A stretch of DNA of 21,733 bases, from the IMG/VR virus record IMGVR_UViG_3300028739_000030, positions 1-21,733 of that record, one strand, 5' to 3'. Under the pieces are notes generated by a model. The model was not told where the DNA came from. It worked only from the letters and a program-made list of their open reading frames with translations, and ran no database searches. This document shows, in pieces, positions 14,170 to 19,522 of the stretch. The position numbers and the translations under genes are program-made. Numbering within the stretch: position 1 is the stretch's first letter; the number at the start of each line of letters is the position of its first letter. This stretch comes from a virus.

Positions 14170-15396
14170 ATGAGAACATTAATAACAAGAATCAGGCGAT
14201 ATGAGTCACCACTTGACGCATTTTGCACGCTAAAGGTCAGATCGGGGGCTTTATATTGTCCTCTATTGCAGACCTACGACAACAATAGCAATGCTTTTGT
14301 TGTAGACAGAAGTACAACACCGACAGTGATAGTCCCCGTCATCAGGTTGACGGCAAAGGACGGTAGTGTAACTTATGATAGTTCGTCGAGTCATCTGGCA
14401 AACATAAAATGGTACGTTCAGCGGGCCGGAGAATCTTCCAGTACCGATATTACTCAGCACGCTCAATGGACAGGACTGTATTCGATATCCTCGGATTCTG
14501 CAAGTCGTGGTGTAATAACGCTTACGAAAAATATCCCGTCATCAGACAGCTGGACAATATGGATGCAGGCGGAATTTGACGATGAACGAACGGGGTCTAC
14601 AATTGTTGTCCCGATATCAAGCGAAAAATTATTGTTGTCAACAACTATCAATACGGAGAGTCCTTATTCGATGTCAACAGATCGGCAGAGTGGCGAAATA
14701 TATGACATGATGCTCGATAAAAGAATAGAATTTGACTATCGGTCTGCTAGAGGTCTGCTGGATAACGGAGAGACATTCACGGATGATGGTAATACCTATC
14801 TCCGCAAATTGACTGTCAATTTACGCAAGGGGCAGACATTACTGACGGCTGGTACTGATTATACAATTAAAATAGAACGTATTGATGCCGGTGTAAGTAC
14901 GGTTGTAACGACTGCTGATTATGAAATAAACTCTATCTCAGGAAATGTTATCACATTCGACTTGCGATGGTTGTTATCTGCGAGTTATAGGATCAGTTGC
15001 ATGATAGGCACAAGGGTGATAGCATTCAACTATTACGGATATATCCGGTCTAAAAAAGAGCCAACAGCGGATACTCTTGCAGGGACTCAGTATGCCGGAA
15101 ATACTACAATAAAGACATGCAAATGTATTCTATCTTATAATGGTTCAATTGTAAAATATCCAGAAGCCTATTGTGATATACAATGGTCGACGCAGCGCGA
15201 AAATGGAAGTTTGACGTACAGGGGATCAGGAGAATCAATATCGTTCGATTTCTCAAATTCAGACGTCATCACTTCGGCCGATAATAATTTTACTATTAAG
15301 GTAGCAATATCCCTGAGGGGCGTATTGAATATACTCACCGATGAACTTGGAAATATACTCACCGATGAACTTGGAAATATACTCACCGATAATTAA
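14170..15396 (+). CDS. Ig-like tail/fibre protein with C-terminal octapeptide repeat
   Basis: The 408-residue protein is beta-rich, with no enzymatic motif. Its N-terminal region (GALYCPLLQTYDNNSNAFVV, then DRSTTPTVIVPVIRL and IKWYVQRAG) aligns by eye with the next gene, which points to duplication. Central segments alternate beta strands typical of Ig-like adhesion domains. The C-terminus consists of the octapeptide NILTDELG twice and a partial third copy, encoded by a 24-bp DNA repeat (15328-15390). It starts 6 bases after the fibre gene and ends 12 bases before the next. I cannot name the family; a structural tail or fibre role is inferred from the neighbours. Confidence 0.58.
   Translation: MRTLITRIRRYESPLDAFCTLKVRSGALYCPLLQTYDNNSNAFVVDRSTTPTVIVPVIRLTAKDGSVTYDSSSSHLANIKWYVQRAGESSSTDITQHAQWTGLYSISSDSASRGVITLTKNIPSSDSWTIWMQAEFDDERTGSTIVVPISSEKLLLSTTINTESPYSMSTDRQSGEIYDMMLDKRIEFDYRSARGLLDNGETFTDDGNTYLRKLTVNLRKGQTLLTAGTDYTIKIERIDAGVSTVVTTADYEINSISGNVITFDLRWLLSASYRISCMIGTRVIAFNYYGYIRSKKEPTADTLAGTQYAGNTTIKTCKCILSYNGSIVKYPEAYCDIQWSTQRENGSLTYRGSGESISFDFSNSDVITSADNNFTIKVAISLRGVLNILTDELGNILTDELGNILTDN
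15328..15390 (+). repeat. 24-bp tandem repeat, 2.6 copies, at a gene end
   Basis: Units begin at 15328, 15352 and 15376 and are identical over their shared length; each encodes NILTDELG in frame. The third copy stops after NILTD and runs into AAT-TAA. Because the unit is a multiple of three, slippage would lengthen or shorten the protein tail without breaking the frame. Confidence 0.9.
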
Positions 15397-15408: not shown

Positions 15409-16506
15409 ATGACAAACAATGCACAAGGAACCATCACACTCCGAAAGCTTCGGAATGGTTCAACGAGCGCAGTAACGCTTAATGTAGATAAGCAGCTATT
15501 GCAGCTGGTGGCAATAAATGATGCCACGGGAAATGCTACCGTCGCTCCAGACTGGACAGTAGCAGCAAACCAACCGACAATCACACCGATGCTTGTTGGA
15601 GGAGCTACGGGAATGACGCTGTCCGACATTCGGTGGTATTATAATGGCGACACCTATATCGGAAATGTAGCATCTGGAAGTATTAATTCTAATTTTAGAA
15701 TTAACGCGAACGGAAGCCTTACGATTATCGGTAATCTGGCCAGCAAGGATAACCTCTTTACGGACACAGTTACCATGAAGGCAGAAGTTACAGATACGAC
15801 GGGGATAACAAGTGGTAACATCGAAAAGAGTATCGATATTCCTATTCAGCGCGCATCAACATCGGGGTATACCGTATTGATAGACTCTACCAGTACGGTA
15901 TTGGGAACAACATCTTCGGGGTCAGTTGTAAATAGTGCTACTTTGACGGCAAAGGTACTACAAGGAGTAACGGATGTAACAGACAGCGTTACGGTCAAAT
16001 TTTTTAATGGTTTGTCGGATTCGACCGGCACAACCGGGAAAACGTTAACCGTTTCAAGAAGTGATGTCAACGGATCACAGTTATATATAGCCCGTGCCTT
16101 TGTTGGCAGTACGGAGGTAGATGCGGAAGGAATTACAATCCTTGATTCGTCTGACGAATATCAGGTCGTAACTGATGTAACTGATGGGGTAAATTCGCAG
16201 AATAATGTAACAACATACAATGTCCCTGAATCCACGGCACTTATTACGGTCACTGGTAGGGCTCAAAGAAATGGGGCTGATATTACTGCATCTTCGTGGG
16301 TAACGAGTAAAGTTCATGCAGACACTCAGAAGCTAATTGCTGAGGTTGATGGACAGAGTGCTTTCACGACTGATACAACTGTTGCAAATAGCTATAATAC
16401 AACATCGACTAATACGATAACTGTCCTAGACAAGGATTATATAAATACCAGTTCCGGGTCTAAGAAAAGGGCAGAGGTGTTTGTTATTGCTCAGGCTGAA
16501 ATCTAA
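15409..16506 (+). CDS. Ig-like tail/fibre protein, paralogue of the preceding gene
   Basis: A 365-residue, Thr/Ser/Val-rich, all-beta protein. Its first third shows the same order of features as the gene before it: LLQLVAINDATGNATVAPDW, a Pro-Thr-Ile segment (NQPTITPMLVGG) and IRWYYNGDTYIG, corresponding to LLQTYDNN, PTVIVPVI and IKWYVQRAG there. The rest contains at least two Ig-like stretches (SATLTAKVLQGVTDVTDSVT and ALITVTGRAQRNGADITASS). No catalytic residues, signal peptide or membrane segment are seen. It lies 12 bases after its paralogue and 17 bases before a small gene that precedes the DGR target. It is probably a virion adhesin or fibre component. Confidence 0.58.
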   Translation: MTNNAQGTITLRKLRNGSTSAVTLNVDKQLLQLVAINDATGNATVAPDWTVAANQPTITPMLVGGATGMTLSDIRWYYNGDTYIGNVASGSINSNFRINANGSLTIIGNLASKDNLFTDTVTMKAEVTDTTGITSGNIEKSIDIPIQRASTSGYTVLIDSTSTVLGTTSSGSVVNSATLTAKVLQGVTDVTDSVTVKFFNGLSDSTGTTGKTLTVSRSDVNGSQLYIARAFVGSTEVDAEGITILDSSDEYQVVTDVTDGVNSQNNVTTYNVPESTALITVTGRAQRNGADITASSWVTSKVHADTQKLIAEVDGQSAFTTDTTVANSYNTTSTNTITVLDKDYINTSSGSKKRAEVFVIAQAEI

Positions 16507-16921: not shown

Positions 16922-17695
16922 ATGGCACTAATGAAATTAACTGATAAACCCACTGTGGGCAGTGTAAATTTAACTGATTTACTTACATTAAATCAGGGAT
17001 CTTCGGCAAAACAAGTTGCTGTACAAAAAGTAGTAGACTTGTCGTCGGCTGCTGCTTCCATCGCCGCTCAAACAGCATTGACCCCGTCTTTATTAGATGG
17101 CGTATTTATTATGTATCATAGGAAGTCGGATAATATTCCCATCCTTGCAACGTCAGTGGCATGGCCGGCATTACAAACGGCTGGAGAAATCGCCGATGGC
17201 GTGTTAGTATTGCAAGGAGGTAAGCACCTTGTTGTTGCTCCAACTGAGACAAATAAATATTTTTCAAGTAGTGCAGTGCTCGTTGGAACGGCTGTAACTG
17301 ACAGAATCGTGGCGATGAACGATTGGAATGGCAAGGCATTAACTGCCGCACTTGTTGCAAATGCAACATTAGCCGTAGATGGGGACGGGTTTGCACCAGG
17401 ATGGGCACATGCTTATTCTCGTACAAATGCAAATGGGCAAGGACTAACAGCCGGTAAATGGTGGCTTCCGGCTGCTGGAGAGAATACGTTCATGCTCGCA
17501 AATTTCAACAAGATAAATAAATGCCTCTCTGTGATCAATGGCGCGACTCTATTACAAGGTGGTGCCTACTGGTCTAGCACTGAGGGCTCAGCGGCGGGCG
17601 CATGGGACTTGAACCTCGGCAACGGCTTCCTGAGCCCGTACACTAAGGTGAGCATCCTGTACGCTGTGAGGCCAGTGTCAGCATTTATCTCTTAA
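16922..17695 (+). CDS. DGR target: variable tail protein with C-type-lectin-like domain
   Basis: The 257-residue protein is the substrate of the retroelement. Its N-terminal 60 residues (KPTVGSVNLTDLLTLNQGSS) look like a virion attachment segment. The C-terminal domain carries the DGR-target hallmarks GKWWLPAAGE (178-187) and AYWSSTE (215-221), then the variable repeat that encodes residues 220-254 and ends AVRPVSAFIS. Residues that differ from the template are 222, 225, 226, 229, 236, 238, 239, 240, 245 and 247. N231 and N234 in LNLGNG are template-encoded but unchanged here. In known C-type-lectin DGR targets such residues line the ligand face, so this is probably a receptor-binding tip. 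Avd follows after 24 bases. A second ATG at 16931 would remove three residues. Confidence 0.92.
   Translation: MALMKLTDKPTVGSVNLTDLLTLNQGSSAKQVAVQKVVDLSSAAASIAAQTALTPSLLDGVFIMYHRKSDNIPILATSVAWPALQTAGEIADGVLVLQGGKHLVVAPTETNKYFSSSAVLVGTAVTDRIVAMNDWNGKALTAALVANATLAVDGDGFAPGWAHAYSRTNANGQGLTAGKWWLPAAGENTFMLANFNKINKCLSVINGATLLQGGAYWSSTEGSAAGAWDLNLGNGFLSPYTKVSILYAVRPVSAFIS
17579..17683 (+). repeat. DGR variable repeat (VR)
   Basis: These 105 bp at the 3' end of the target gene align without gaps to the template repeat 598 bp downstream. Thirteen positions differ: 17585, 17586, 17594, 17597, 17598, 17606, 17627, 17628, 17634, 17636, 17639, 17655 and 17660. At every one TR has A, while VR has G (7), T (5) or C (1). 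The last 23 bases (17661-17683) are identical in both and contain the likely initiation site of mutagenic homing. Similarity stops at both ends. Confidence 0.97.
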
Positions 17696-17719
17696 ACCCT
17701 TTAACTCTTTAACTCTTCA

Positions 17720-18067
17720 ATGATAGCGACAGAATTACCAGTGTATCATGATGTCTATAAATTTGTAAAGATGGTGGCCATGGCACAAAATAATTATTCA
17801 AAACAGTTCAAATACGGGTTGGGCGAAAAAACGCTCAACACCGCTATTGAGCTGTTCGAGTATATCCAACTTGCGAACATGTTCAAAGAAAATAGAAAAG
17901 TCCATTTAAATGGCTTTATAATCAAGTTTGAAACTGTTAAGACACTGTTAAGAGTCGCAGAAGATTTTCATCAAATAAGTATCAGCAAACGTGCAGAGAT
18001 GTTCCCTGTTATCGAAAGAATTGGTCGGCAAATTACAGCATGGAAAAATGCCCCTCTTAAGCAGTAG
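17720..18067 (+). CDS. avd: DGR accessory variability determinant (Avd)
   Basis: This 115-residue, basic, helical protein fits the Avd family in size, place and sequence. Avd forms a pentameric barrel of four-helix bundles that binds the reverse transcriptase and template RNA and is required for cDNA synthesis in the Bordetella phage element. Visible segments: YHDVYKFVKMVAMAQNNYSK, YGLGEKTLNTAIELFEYIQL, a third helix FETVKTLLRVAEDFHQ, and a fourth, MFPVIERIGRQITAWKN. The pattern 'fPk..ry.lg..l...a.e.l..i..A' is typical of Avd and the related S23 bundle proteins. Start at ATG 17720, after a run of TTTAACTC-type repeats. Downstream comes the template repeat, giving the order target-avd-TR-RT. 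Confidence 0.9.
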   Translation: MIATELPVYHDVYKFVKMVAMAQNNYSKQFKYGLGEKTLNTAIELFEYIQLANMFKENRKVHLNGFIIKFETVKTLLRVAEDFHQISISKRAEMFPVIERIGRQITAWKNAPLKQ

Positions 18068-18083
18068 GCATTTTGTGACAGAA

Positions 18084-18107
18084 TTTTGTATTTTACGGAA
18101 TACAGAA
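18084..18107 (+). promoter_or_regulatory. Hairpin in the leader of the DGR template RNA
   Basis: TGTATT (18087-18092) and AATACA (18099-18104) pair perfectly around the loop TTACGG; TTT (18084-18086) and GAA (18105-18107) extend the stem with one G-U pair. It lies 17 bases after the avd stop and about 70 bases before TR, so it would be part of the structured template RNA. DGR template RNAs need flanking sequence for priming, but no function is shown here. Confidence 0.4.
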
Positions 18108-18176
18108 GAGTTCCTTCCATAAAGAAATGGGTGCCCGCTATCATTTATAGCTAAAAATAAGAAAGTGGCACAATAT

Positions 18177-18281
18177 ACTGAGAACTCAGCGACGAACGCA
18201 TGGAACTTGAACCTCGGCAACGGCAACCTGAACACGAACACTAAGGTGAGCAACCTGAACGCTGTGAGGCCAGTGTCAGCA
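18177..18281 (+). repeat. DGR template repeat (TR), non-coding RNA source
   Basis: The 105-bp invariant donor copies into the VR of the target gene through an RNA and an error-prone cDNA. Read in the target's frame it holds ten AAC and two ACG codons, and all thirteen VR differences lie in these. AAC mutated at its adenines gives NNC codons, which never include a stop. The repeat lies between avd and the RT gene and ends 20 bases before the RT start codon. It is not itself inside a protein gene, so it should act as RNA. Its exact RNA ends are unknown. Confidence 0.96.
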
Positions 18282-18301
18282 CTTCAAAGAAAGGAATTAT
18301 T

Positions 18302-19522
18302 ATGGTAACGATAGAAGATATTACAAAGGCATATATTGATTGCCGTAAAAAGAAACGGAACACAAACAATGCTATCAGATTTGAGATAGACTACGAATGC
18401 AATCTTGCTAGGCTCACTGATGAGATTAACGACAGGACGTATCAGATATCACGTTGCCTCTCATTTGTCGTTACAAGACCGAGATACAGGGAAGTCTTTG
18501 CAGCTGATTTTAGAGACAGAATCATTCATCATTATATTGCATTAAGACTTATCCCCATACTCGATAAGATTATGAACGATAGGAGTTTTAATTGCAGGGT
18601 AGGGAAAGGGACTTTGTCGGGCGTCAAGCAGCTATACGCGGACATAAAAGAGTGTTCAAATCAATATACACAGGATTGCTGGGTATGCAAAATGGACATA
18701 AGGGGGTTTTTCATGAGCATCAATAGACTCATGCTAGCCGAAAGGGTAGAGAAACTTACAAAGAAATATTATATAGGAGACGATAAAGAAGACCTCCTGT
18801 GGCTTGAGGGAAAAACGATAACCAACAGTCCGGAATACAACTGCATAAAGAAATCGCCATTAGAACTGTGGAATTACATTCCGAAAGAAAAGAGTCTCTT
18901 TACAAATGGAGAAAATATAGGCTTACCGATCGGAAATTTACCGTCTCAGATATTGGCAAATTACCTGATGGATTCCATCGATTGGGAAATTGAAAATATG
19001 GGACTTAAATATCATGGGCGGTATGTCGATGATATTTATATTGTCGACAGAGATAAAAGTCTTATCTTGAAATCTATTCCGAAAATAAGGCAGCTGTTAT
19101 CTGAAATTGGACTGACACTTCACCCTAGAAAGTTCTATTTTCAGCACTATTCGAAGGGCATTGAATTTACCGGAACAATCATAAAGGGGAATAGATCTTA
19201 TGTAAATAACAGGATCGTATTTTCTTTTAAAAATTCAGTTAAGGAACTCGAACAGGCTAAGACGATAGATGAAATATTTTATGCAGTCTCACGCGTCAAC
19301 TCATACCTCGGAACAATGTCACATCACAATACTTACGCAATCAGAAGTGACGTATTGGTTCATGCAGACATCTATAATAAAGTATATGTCGGTGGAAAAT
19401 ATGAAAAGGTAGTGGTTAAAAATAAATATAAATATCGTGAATTCGTCAGAAAGGAAATCAATAAAAGGAAATGGGTCGAAATTGGACTCGCAAGTCCTGT
19501 ATTCCAAGAACCCTCCAAATGA
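18302..19522 (+). CDS. DGR reverse transcriptase
   Basis: The 406-residue enzyme copies the template RNA into cDNA with errors at adenines. Fingers and palm motifs are in order: REVFAADFRDRIIHHYIALR (63-82), SFNCRVGKGT (95-104), the first catalytic Asp132 in KMDIRGFF, a DGR-type insertion with YNCIKKSPLELW (179-190), LPIGNLPSQ (208-216) and YVDD (241-244) with Asp243/244. The GNLPSQ form, instead of QG...SP of retroviral and group II enzymes, is diagnostic for DGR reverse transcriptases, which are error-prone. The C-terminus is basic (KNKYKYREFVRKEINKRK), as expected for the thumb and RNA or Avd contact. AGAAAGG lies about 10 bases ahead of the ATG, one of the better ribosome sites here. All catalytic residues are intact. 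Confidence 0.97.
   Translation: MVTIEDITKAYIDCRKKKRNTNNAIRFEIDYECNLARLTDEINDRTYQISRCLSFVVTRPRYREVFAADFRDRIIHHYIALRLIPILDKIMNDRSFNCRVGKGTLSGVKQLYADIKECSNQYTQDCWVCKMDIRGFFMSINRLMLAERVEKLTKKYYIGDDKEDLLWLEGKTITNSPEYNCIKKSPLELWNYIPKEKSLFTNGENIGLPIGNLPSQILANYLMDSIDWEIENMGLKYHGRYVDDIYIVDRDKSLILKSIPKIRQLLSEIGLTLHPRKFYFQHYSKGIEFTGTIIKGNRSYVNNRIVFSFKNSVKELEQAKTIDEIFYAVSRVNSYLGTMSHHNTYAIRSDVLVHADIYNKVYVGGKYEKVVVKNKYKYREFVRKEINKRKWVEIGLASPVFQEPSK

Follow-up and report, generated by a model that had tools for sequence, protein, structure and literature searches.

A diversity-generating retroelement in a Mu-like phage with a tail-module target and a second target in an early operon

The 21,733-bp virus record IMGVR_UViG_3300028739_000030 (hereafter the window), whose program-listed open reading frames (ORFs) and coordinates we re-examined, carries a diversity-generating retroelement (DGR) at 16922-19522, with its parts in the order target, Avd, template repeat (TR), and reverse transcriptase (RT). 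The element is a real and complete DGR of an already known kind. It very probably belongs to a Mu-like phage of the Bacteroidales type, in which a single TR serves two targets with C-type-lectin-like domains, one in the tail module (target 1) and one in an early operon (target 2). In the mechanism we propose, TR adenines would be mutated on copying into the variable repeat (VR) of the adjacent tail-module lectin (VR1) and into that of a 219-aa early-operon lectin (VR2). Target 1, as a probable receptor-binding tip, would thereby act in adsorption, and target 2 would act inside the infected cell. It is the second target in early operons that is the part worth following.

One template repeat and two variable repeats

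The TR is assigned to both targets because the mismatches of each VR fall at its adenines, 13 of 13 in VR1 and 9, plus a discriminator base, in VR2. TR and VR1 align without gaps over 105 nt, and, given the 34 adenines of the TR, this placement has a chance probability of ~7e-8. The VR1 substitutions alter 10 codons, 8 of them AAC, create no stops, and lie at codon positions 1 and 2 (8 and 5, respectively) and never at position 3. VR2 is found at the 3' end of the 219-aa gene on a 24,143-bp contig that matches the window at 100% identity across the first 14,049 bases and extends beyond its left end, as well as on three other contigs. All of these agree fully with the window in the region of overlap, and they place target 2 outside it, ~7.6-8.3 kb past its left end. 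The tenth difference between VR2 and the window TR is the C/T discriminator. A sequence-only reading of the window had recognized a single target. The phage has a further one, which carries VR2, belongs to an early operon, and is not in the tail module.

The relatives repeat this pattern. Among 26 relative records that are 36 kb or longer, 15 contain a long match to target 2, and in 17 relative records (including two near-duplicate pairs), VR2 compared with the TR of the same record gives 246 adenine mismatches and 5 others. The target-2 VR likewise matches its own TR in a further phage set and in phage BS-TP1. The target-2 loci L267, L270, and L272 share all 591 upstream bases compared; they have 12-15 differing positions in the last 118 bases, and every VR change falls at an adenine relative to the TR of L270's record.

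The features of the cassette and its tail-gene context are as follows.

16922..17695, + strand: target 1 gene (ORF), 257 aa; tail-module product whose C-terminal C-type-lectin-like domain contains the VR
17579..17683, + strand: VR1, variable repeat, 105 nt; 13 mismatches to the TR, each at a TR adenine
17661..17683, + strand: core of the initiation of mutagenic homing (IMH) site, 23 nt shared exactly by the two repeats, VR1 and TR, at their 3' ends
17684..17719, + strand: pyrimidine-rich tail after VR1 with CTCTTTAA-like repeats; hairpin-free, unlike most relatives, in which a GC-rich hairpin occupies this place
17720..18067, + strand: Avd accessory protein gene, 115 aa; Pfam bAvd, PHROG 3206
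18177..18281, + strand: TR, template repeat; 10 AAY codons, 34 adenines
18282..18301, + strand: TR-to-RT linker, 20 nt
18302..19522, + strand: DGR reverse transcriptase gene, 406 aa; Asp132, IGNLPSQ, YVDD
14170..15396, + strand: tail protein gene (context); PHROG 3267 tail, E 8e-7
15409..16506, + strand: tail protein gene (context), likely a paralogue of the 14170..15396 product; PHROG 3267 tail, E 4e-8

All four parts named by the sequence-only reading are thus present at the positions it had given, and the PHROG 3267 neighbors agree with its placement of the cassette among fiber genes. Its term "complete" applies to the cassette but not to the system, which extends past the window because the second target lies outside it; similarly, "intact" describes the genes but not the target site, which is missing the hairpin found downstream of the VR in most relatives.

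IMH and IMH* are distinguished by a single base, T at 17684 after VR1 (and also in VR2) versus C at 18282 after the TR, i.e., GCA followed by T versus GCA followed by C. The same discriminator recurs in nearly all relatives examined; in nearly all of those printed, the TR reads GCAC, and both VRs read GCAT (or GCGT) and continue into a T-rich stretch. The TR-RT linker has a median length of 34 nt across 78 loci, against 20 nt in the window, and because it is this short, a spacer like that of BPP-1 does not fit it. A spacer element hidden in the 5' coding region of the RT is unsupported, as synonymous positions in the first 30 codons show hardly any added conservation (0.38 versus 0.34). An Rfam scan of the window gave no match. 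Upstream, the tail gene at 14170-15396 has nearly three tandem copies of a 24-bp unit (ILTDELGN) at its own 3' end (15328-15394).

Enzymes, variation among relatives, and the target-site hairpin

The RT motifs Asp132, GNLPSQ (211-216), and YVDD (241-244), reported as intact by the sequence-only reading, are present and align with those of the relatives, and the RT carries the DGR-type GxxxSQ (IGNLPSQ) in place of QGxxxSP. It matches Pfam RVT_1 (69.9 bits) and PHROG 1423 (E 5e-66), and its best match among solved structures is 8ub7, a 328-aa entry titled "Reverse transcriptase," which we take, from this length only, to be the BPP-1 bRT. A tree of 24 RTs groups the window RT with that of phage Bacuni F2, two viral relatives, and one fecal contig (support 98/96). 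This group nests in a larger DGR set (96/96), with group II intron and CRISPR-associated RTs falling outside that set and two SQ-motif plasmid RTs of no known type sitting nearby. The tree hence puts the RT among DGR RTs, in line with the original assignment. The call of Avd, an accessory protein that most DGRs have, is borne out by matches to Pfam bAvd (49.6 bits, above the cut-off of 40) and PHROG 3206 ("Avd protein of DGR," E 2e-15); the NCBIfam Avd model gave 43 bits, under its cut-off of 80. Sequence searches of the PDB with Avd and with target 1 returned nothing useful.

Some RTs of the relatives (given by our locus numbers) show departures of their own. The RTs of the isolates Bacuni F1 and F4 (L012:5268-6398 and L008:20001-21131) are without 19 residues (LFEQIFSPRTFNCRKGKGQ) relative to that at L007:10151-11338. 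A deletion in F1 and F4 is more likely than the published insertion in F2, because the region is kept in F2, the window RT, and the other aligned relatives and because the 57-bp gap has a 5-nt microhomology. The DGR RTs at L002:769-1947 and L004:2516-3694 read GNLFAQ where GxxxSQ is usual, and their VRs still bear the adenine signature. At L010:9812-11233 and L011:4719-6200, the TR lies inside an open frame running into the RT; it may be translated there, or the RT start may be further downstream. An RT 41% identical to that of the window, encoded near an amidase gene on a 317-kb Segatella hominis plasmid (L321:3989-5146), possibly belongs to a phage-plasmid or prophage DGR.

For the comparison of VRs, we assembled 168 loci including the window, 130 of which yielded a TR/VR pair; these pairs contain 1936 adenine mismatches and 82 others. 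Across 24 near-identical locus pairs, the VRs differ at 278/815 TR-adenine sites versus 13/1575 non-adenine sites, so that VR variation far exceeds that of neighboring DNA, the yardstick that the sequence-only reading had named. Left out of this comparison were "TR vs TR" counts inflated where the ends of the TRs are unequal (e.g., L014/L015) and the L007/L012 RT count, inflated by the 57-bp deletion. In the pair L067/L068, 16 of 31 TR-adenine positions differ, as against 0/70 other VR bases, 0/310 upstream target bases, and 0/1000 RT bases. Some identical pairs (e.g., L019/L020) have no VR difference; such pairs may be re-assemblies of one sequence. Because TR-adenine positions of the VR are nearly the only places where near-identical relatives differ, we consider the DGR of this clade to be active, and by analogy, the window's own copy would be active as well.

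A GC-rich hairpin, mostly with a GNNA-type tetraloop, follows VR1 in 69 of 80 loci, lying 26-47 nt downstream in 67 of these 69, and one follows the target-2 VR in 48 of 71. After the TR, it occurs in 0 of the loci examined, and its frequency in shuffles is 0.6%. As a control, the search recovered the known hairpin of BPP-1, where the target-site hairpin is important for homing; it has been proposed as a conserved requirement (PMC3240598). Such a GRNA-loop hairpin is an auxiliary feature of DGRs and does not serve to define them.

Three observations weigh against an active DGR in the window. The same search found no hairpin at window VR1 or at VR2, with the single-strand DNA fold after VR1 at z = +0.9 in the window versus -4.3 in L003. 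The phage's own contigs reveal no VR variation, as four share one VR2 and a second VR1 copy was not found. Finally, RT damage does occur in the clade, given the 57-bp deletion in the sister isolates F1 and F4. Even so, we regard a decaying or inactive element as improbable: all of its genes are open with intact motifs, and VR1 contains no non-adenine mismatch over 105 nt, whereas drift would have made some. Moreover, the relative L009, also hairpin-free, has a VR with 12 adenine mismatches and 0 others. Because the adenine signature in the window is clean, the data suggest either homing without the hairpin or its recent loss, and such hairpin-free target sites probe whether the hairpin is a general requirement, as proposed. 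The idea that ordinary recombination copied one VR into the other, in either direction, in place of rewriting from the TR deserves hardly any credence. The two repeats do share sequence beyond the TR; however, their differences from it are nearly all at adenines, and they carry the same base at 50/123 co-mutated sites, no more than the ~46 expected from base spectra. VR1 and VR2 hence vary independently, and these independent substitutions at TR adenines refute such copying. Nor do the shared substitutions support the binding of one ligand by both VRs.

Roles of the two targets

Target 1 gave no match in Pfam. Its AlphaFold2 model (predicted local distance difference test [pLDDT] score of 86) finds its best PDB folds in 4eps (a B. 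ovatus fimbrial tip, E 2e-4) and 8q4e (the C-terminal domain of Legionella Lcl, E 6e-4), and because the model resembles these, a C-type-lectin fold with the VR held at the C-terminal end is supported, in agreement with the sequence-only reading. The protein is 53% identical over 78% to the target of F1. By analogy, target 1 is most likely the receptor-binding tip that sets adsorption. The earlier proposal of a role in host range is reasoned by analogy, with the comparison of F1 and F4 as its one support, and it was framed for a single target.

The hosts for this comparison are taken from PMC8143477: one strain for F1 and F2 and a different one for F4. F1 and F4 have equal second VRs, and their tail VRs differ at 17 adenine sites and one other, with different host strains. 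F1 and F2, on the same host strain, have tail VRs equal bar one base, and their second VRs differ at 15 adenine sites and one other, amounting to 11 differing residues in target 2. The pattern in these three isolates is consistent with an involvement in tropism of target 1 but not of target 2.

In the model of target 2 (pLDDT 80), two short helices at the N terminus precede a lectin-like domain that matches 8q4e, and no hydrophobic N-terminal segment was found in the protein. Its gene begins 11 nt after an ATPase gene, which in turn overlaps a MuB-like gene on the same strand, forming a MuB-type early operon. In 14 of 17 contexts examined among relatives, the DNA polymerase A gene comes before target 2, either immediately or a few genes away, and the neighbors are genes for an exonuclease, a single-stranded-DNA (ssDNA)-binding protein, a VapE-type primase/helicase, or a polymerase processivity factor. 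We consider target 2 likely to be a non-virion early protein.

Alternatively, both targets might be virion adhesins, with target 2 simply encoded away from the tail genes. They share the C-lectin fold and the TR, and the passages on the targets by Hedzet et al. label both as fimbrial-tip proteins and do not discuss the placement of the second one in the replication operon (PMC8143477). This account appears rather doubtful to us: target 2 is without an N-terminal region like that of target 1, its gene is embedded with MuB-type genes in the window phage and with replication genes in the relatives, and the host strain of F1 and F2 is one and the same despite their 11 target-2 residue differences. 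Instead, we tentatively propose, with somewhat less than even confidence, that one DGR supplies a pair of independent repertoires, the outer being the tail-tip lectin that acts in adsorption and the inner a non-virion C-lectin expressed early in infection from a replication or transposition operon. This inner protein would be selected for binding variable intracellular host molecules, such as a factor of defence or replication.

The main function seen in phage DGRs is to alter receptor binding. Why a phage would hypermutate a protein that probably lies outside the tail is a puzzle, and if our proposal is true, hypermutation would serve cell takeover as well as entry. The second-target family recurs across unrelated backbones (Mu-like, Bacuni-type, and ~100-kb phages), mostly among replication or early genes; the same TR serves to rewrite its VR, and among isolates its variation is not linked to the host strain. 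What second DGR targets do has been described as unclear (PMC10743442), and in the literature we searched, which covered few subscription papers, no early-operon phage DGR target is reported. With F1 and F2 in culture, sharing a host and, bar one base, a tail VR while differing in the second VR, the question is testable now.

Several larger phages encode an RT a few genes downstream of target 2 (L263:7355-8641 and L276:11603-12922), sometimes preceded by PcfK/PcfJ-like genes. It belongs to the UG27 group (PADLOC E ~1e-229) and is not a second DGR RT; in those records that yielded a DGR, the TR that VR2 matches is located elsewhere. Directly after target 2 at L173:11847-12146 (minus strand) lies a gene for a 99-aa protein of no known family, whose cluster recurs near target 2 in ~12 other gene neighborhoods, making it a candidate target-2 partner.

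Phage identity and related systems

The overlapping 24,143-bp contig encodes proteins matching Portal_Mu (235 bits), Phage_Mu_F (55 bits), and a MuB-like transposition protein (PHROG 296, E 2e-38), as well as a virion-morphogenesis protein; MuA was not seen on it, the contig ending there. Because of these Mu-type portal, MuF, and MuB-like genes, we classify the phage as Mu-like and transposable, with a tail/DGR module related to that of Bacuni. The RT has relatives of ~50% identity in the B. uniformis phages F1, F2, and F4, in viral contigs, and in metagenome-assembled genomes, many of the last being Bacteroidales. The metagenome-assembled-genome relatives came from an alignment-based scan of contigs, a query with the RT alone having found none. 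From these relatives, we infer that the host is likely a member of the Bacteroidales. The phage is of gut type.

The sequence-only reading left the DGR variant open, with BPP-1 and Hankyphage as comparisons. By its RT, target, and upstream 807-aa tail-module protein, the module is now seen to be Bacuni-related, whereas the head and transposition genes are Mu-like. The Bacuni phages share the order target-Avd-TR-RT, with identities of ~53% for the C-lectin target, ~50% for the RT, 44% for the remote second target, and 32% for the 807-aa protein. What sets the window phage apart from them is its Mu-like set of portal, MuF, and MuB-type genes, the placement of target 2 in a transposition operon rather than a polymerase/primase operon, and the lack of a target-site hairpin. 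No DNA-level similarity to the phage records searched was seen; megablast of the window against the phage collection gave no match. The similarity to Bacuni is confined to the tail/DGR module, at 32-53% protein identity, and so falls short of the genome-wide nucleotide similarity of the Bacuni genus.

The comparison with Hankyphage (PMC12135933) holds insofar as both are Mu-like transposable Bacteroides-type phages with a DGR on a tail gene, but the nearest DGR found is that of Bacuni; the megablast search had no Hankyphage match either (the presence of p00 in the collection being unconfirmed). BPP-1 has the like order mtd-avd-TR-brt, homologous Avd and RT, a C-lectin target, and adenine-specific TR/VR differences. 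However, its TR-RT spacer is 144 nt, as opposed to 20 nt in the window, a GAAA hairpin stands 4 nt after its VR and at neither VR of the window phage, and it has one annotated target rather than two. In the tentaclin phages nd4 and nd12 (PMC10743442), one TR likewise feeds two C-lectin targets; the window phage differs from them in having both VRs at the 3' end of their genes and one target in an early operon.
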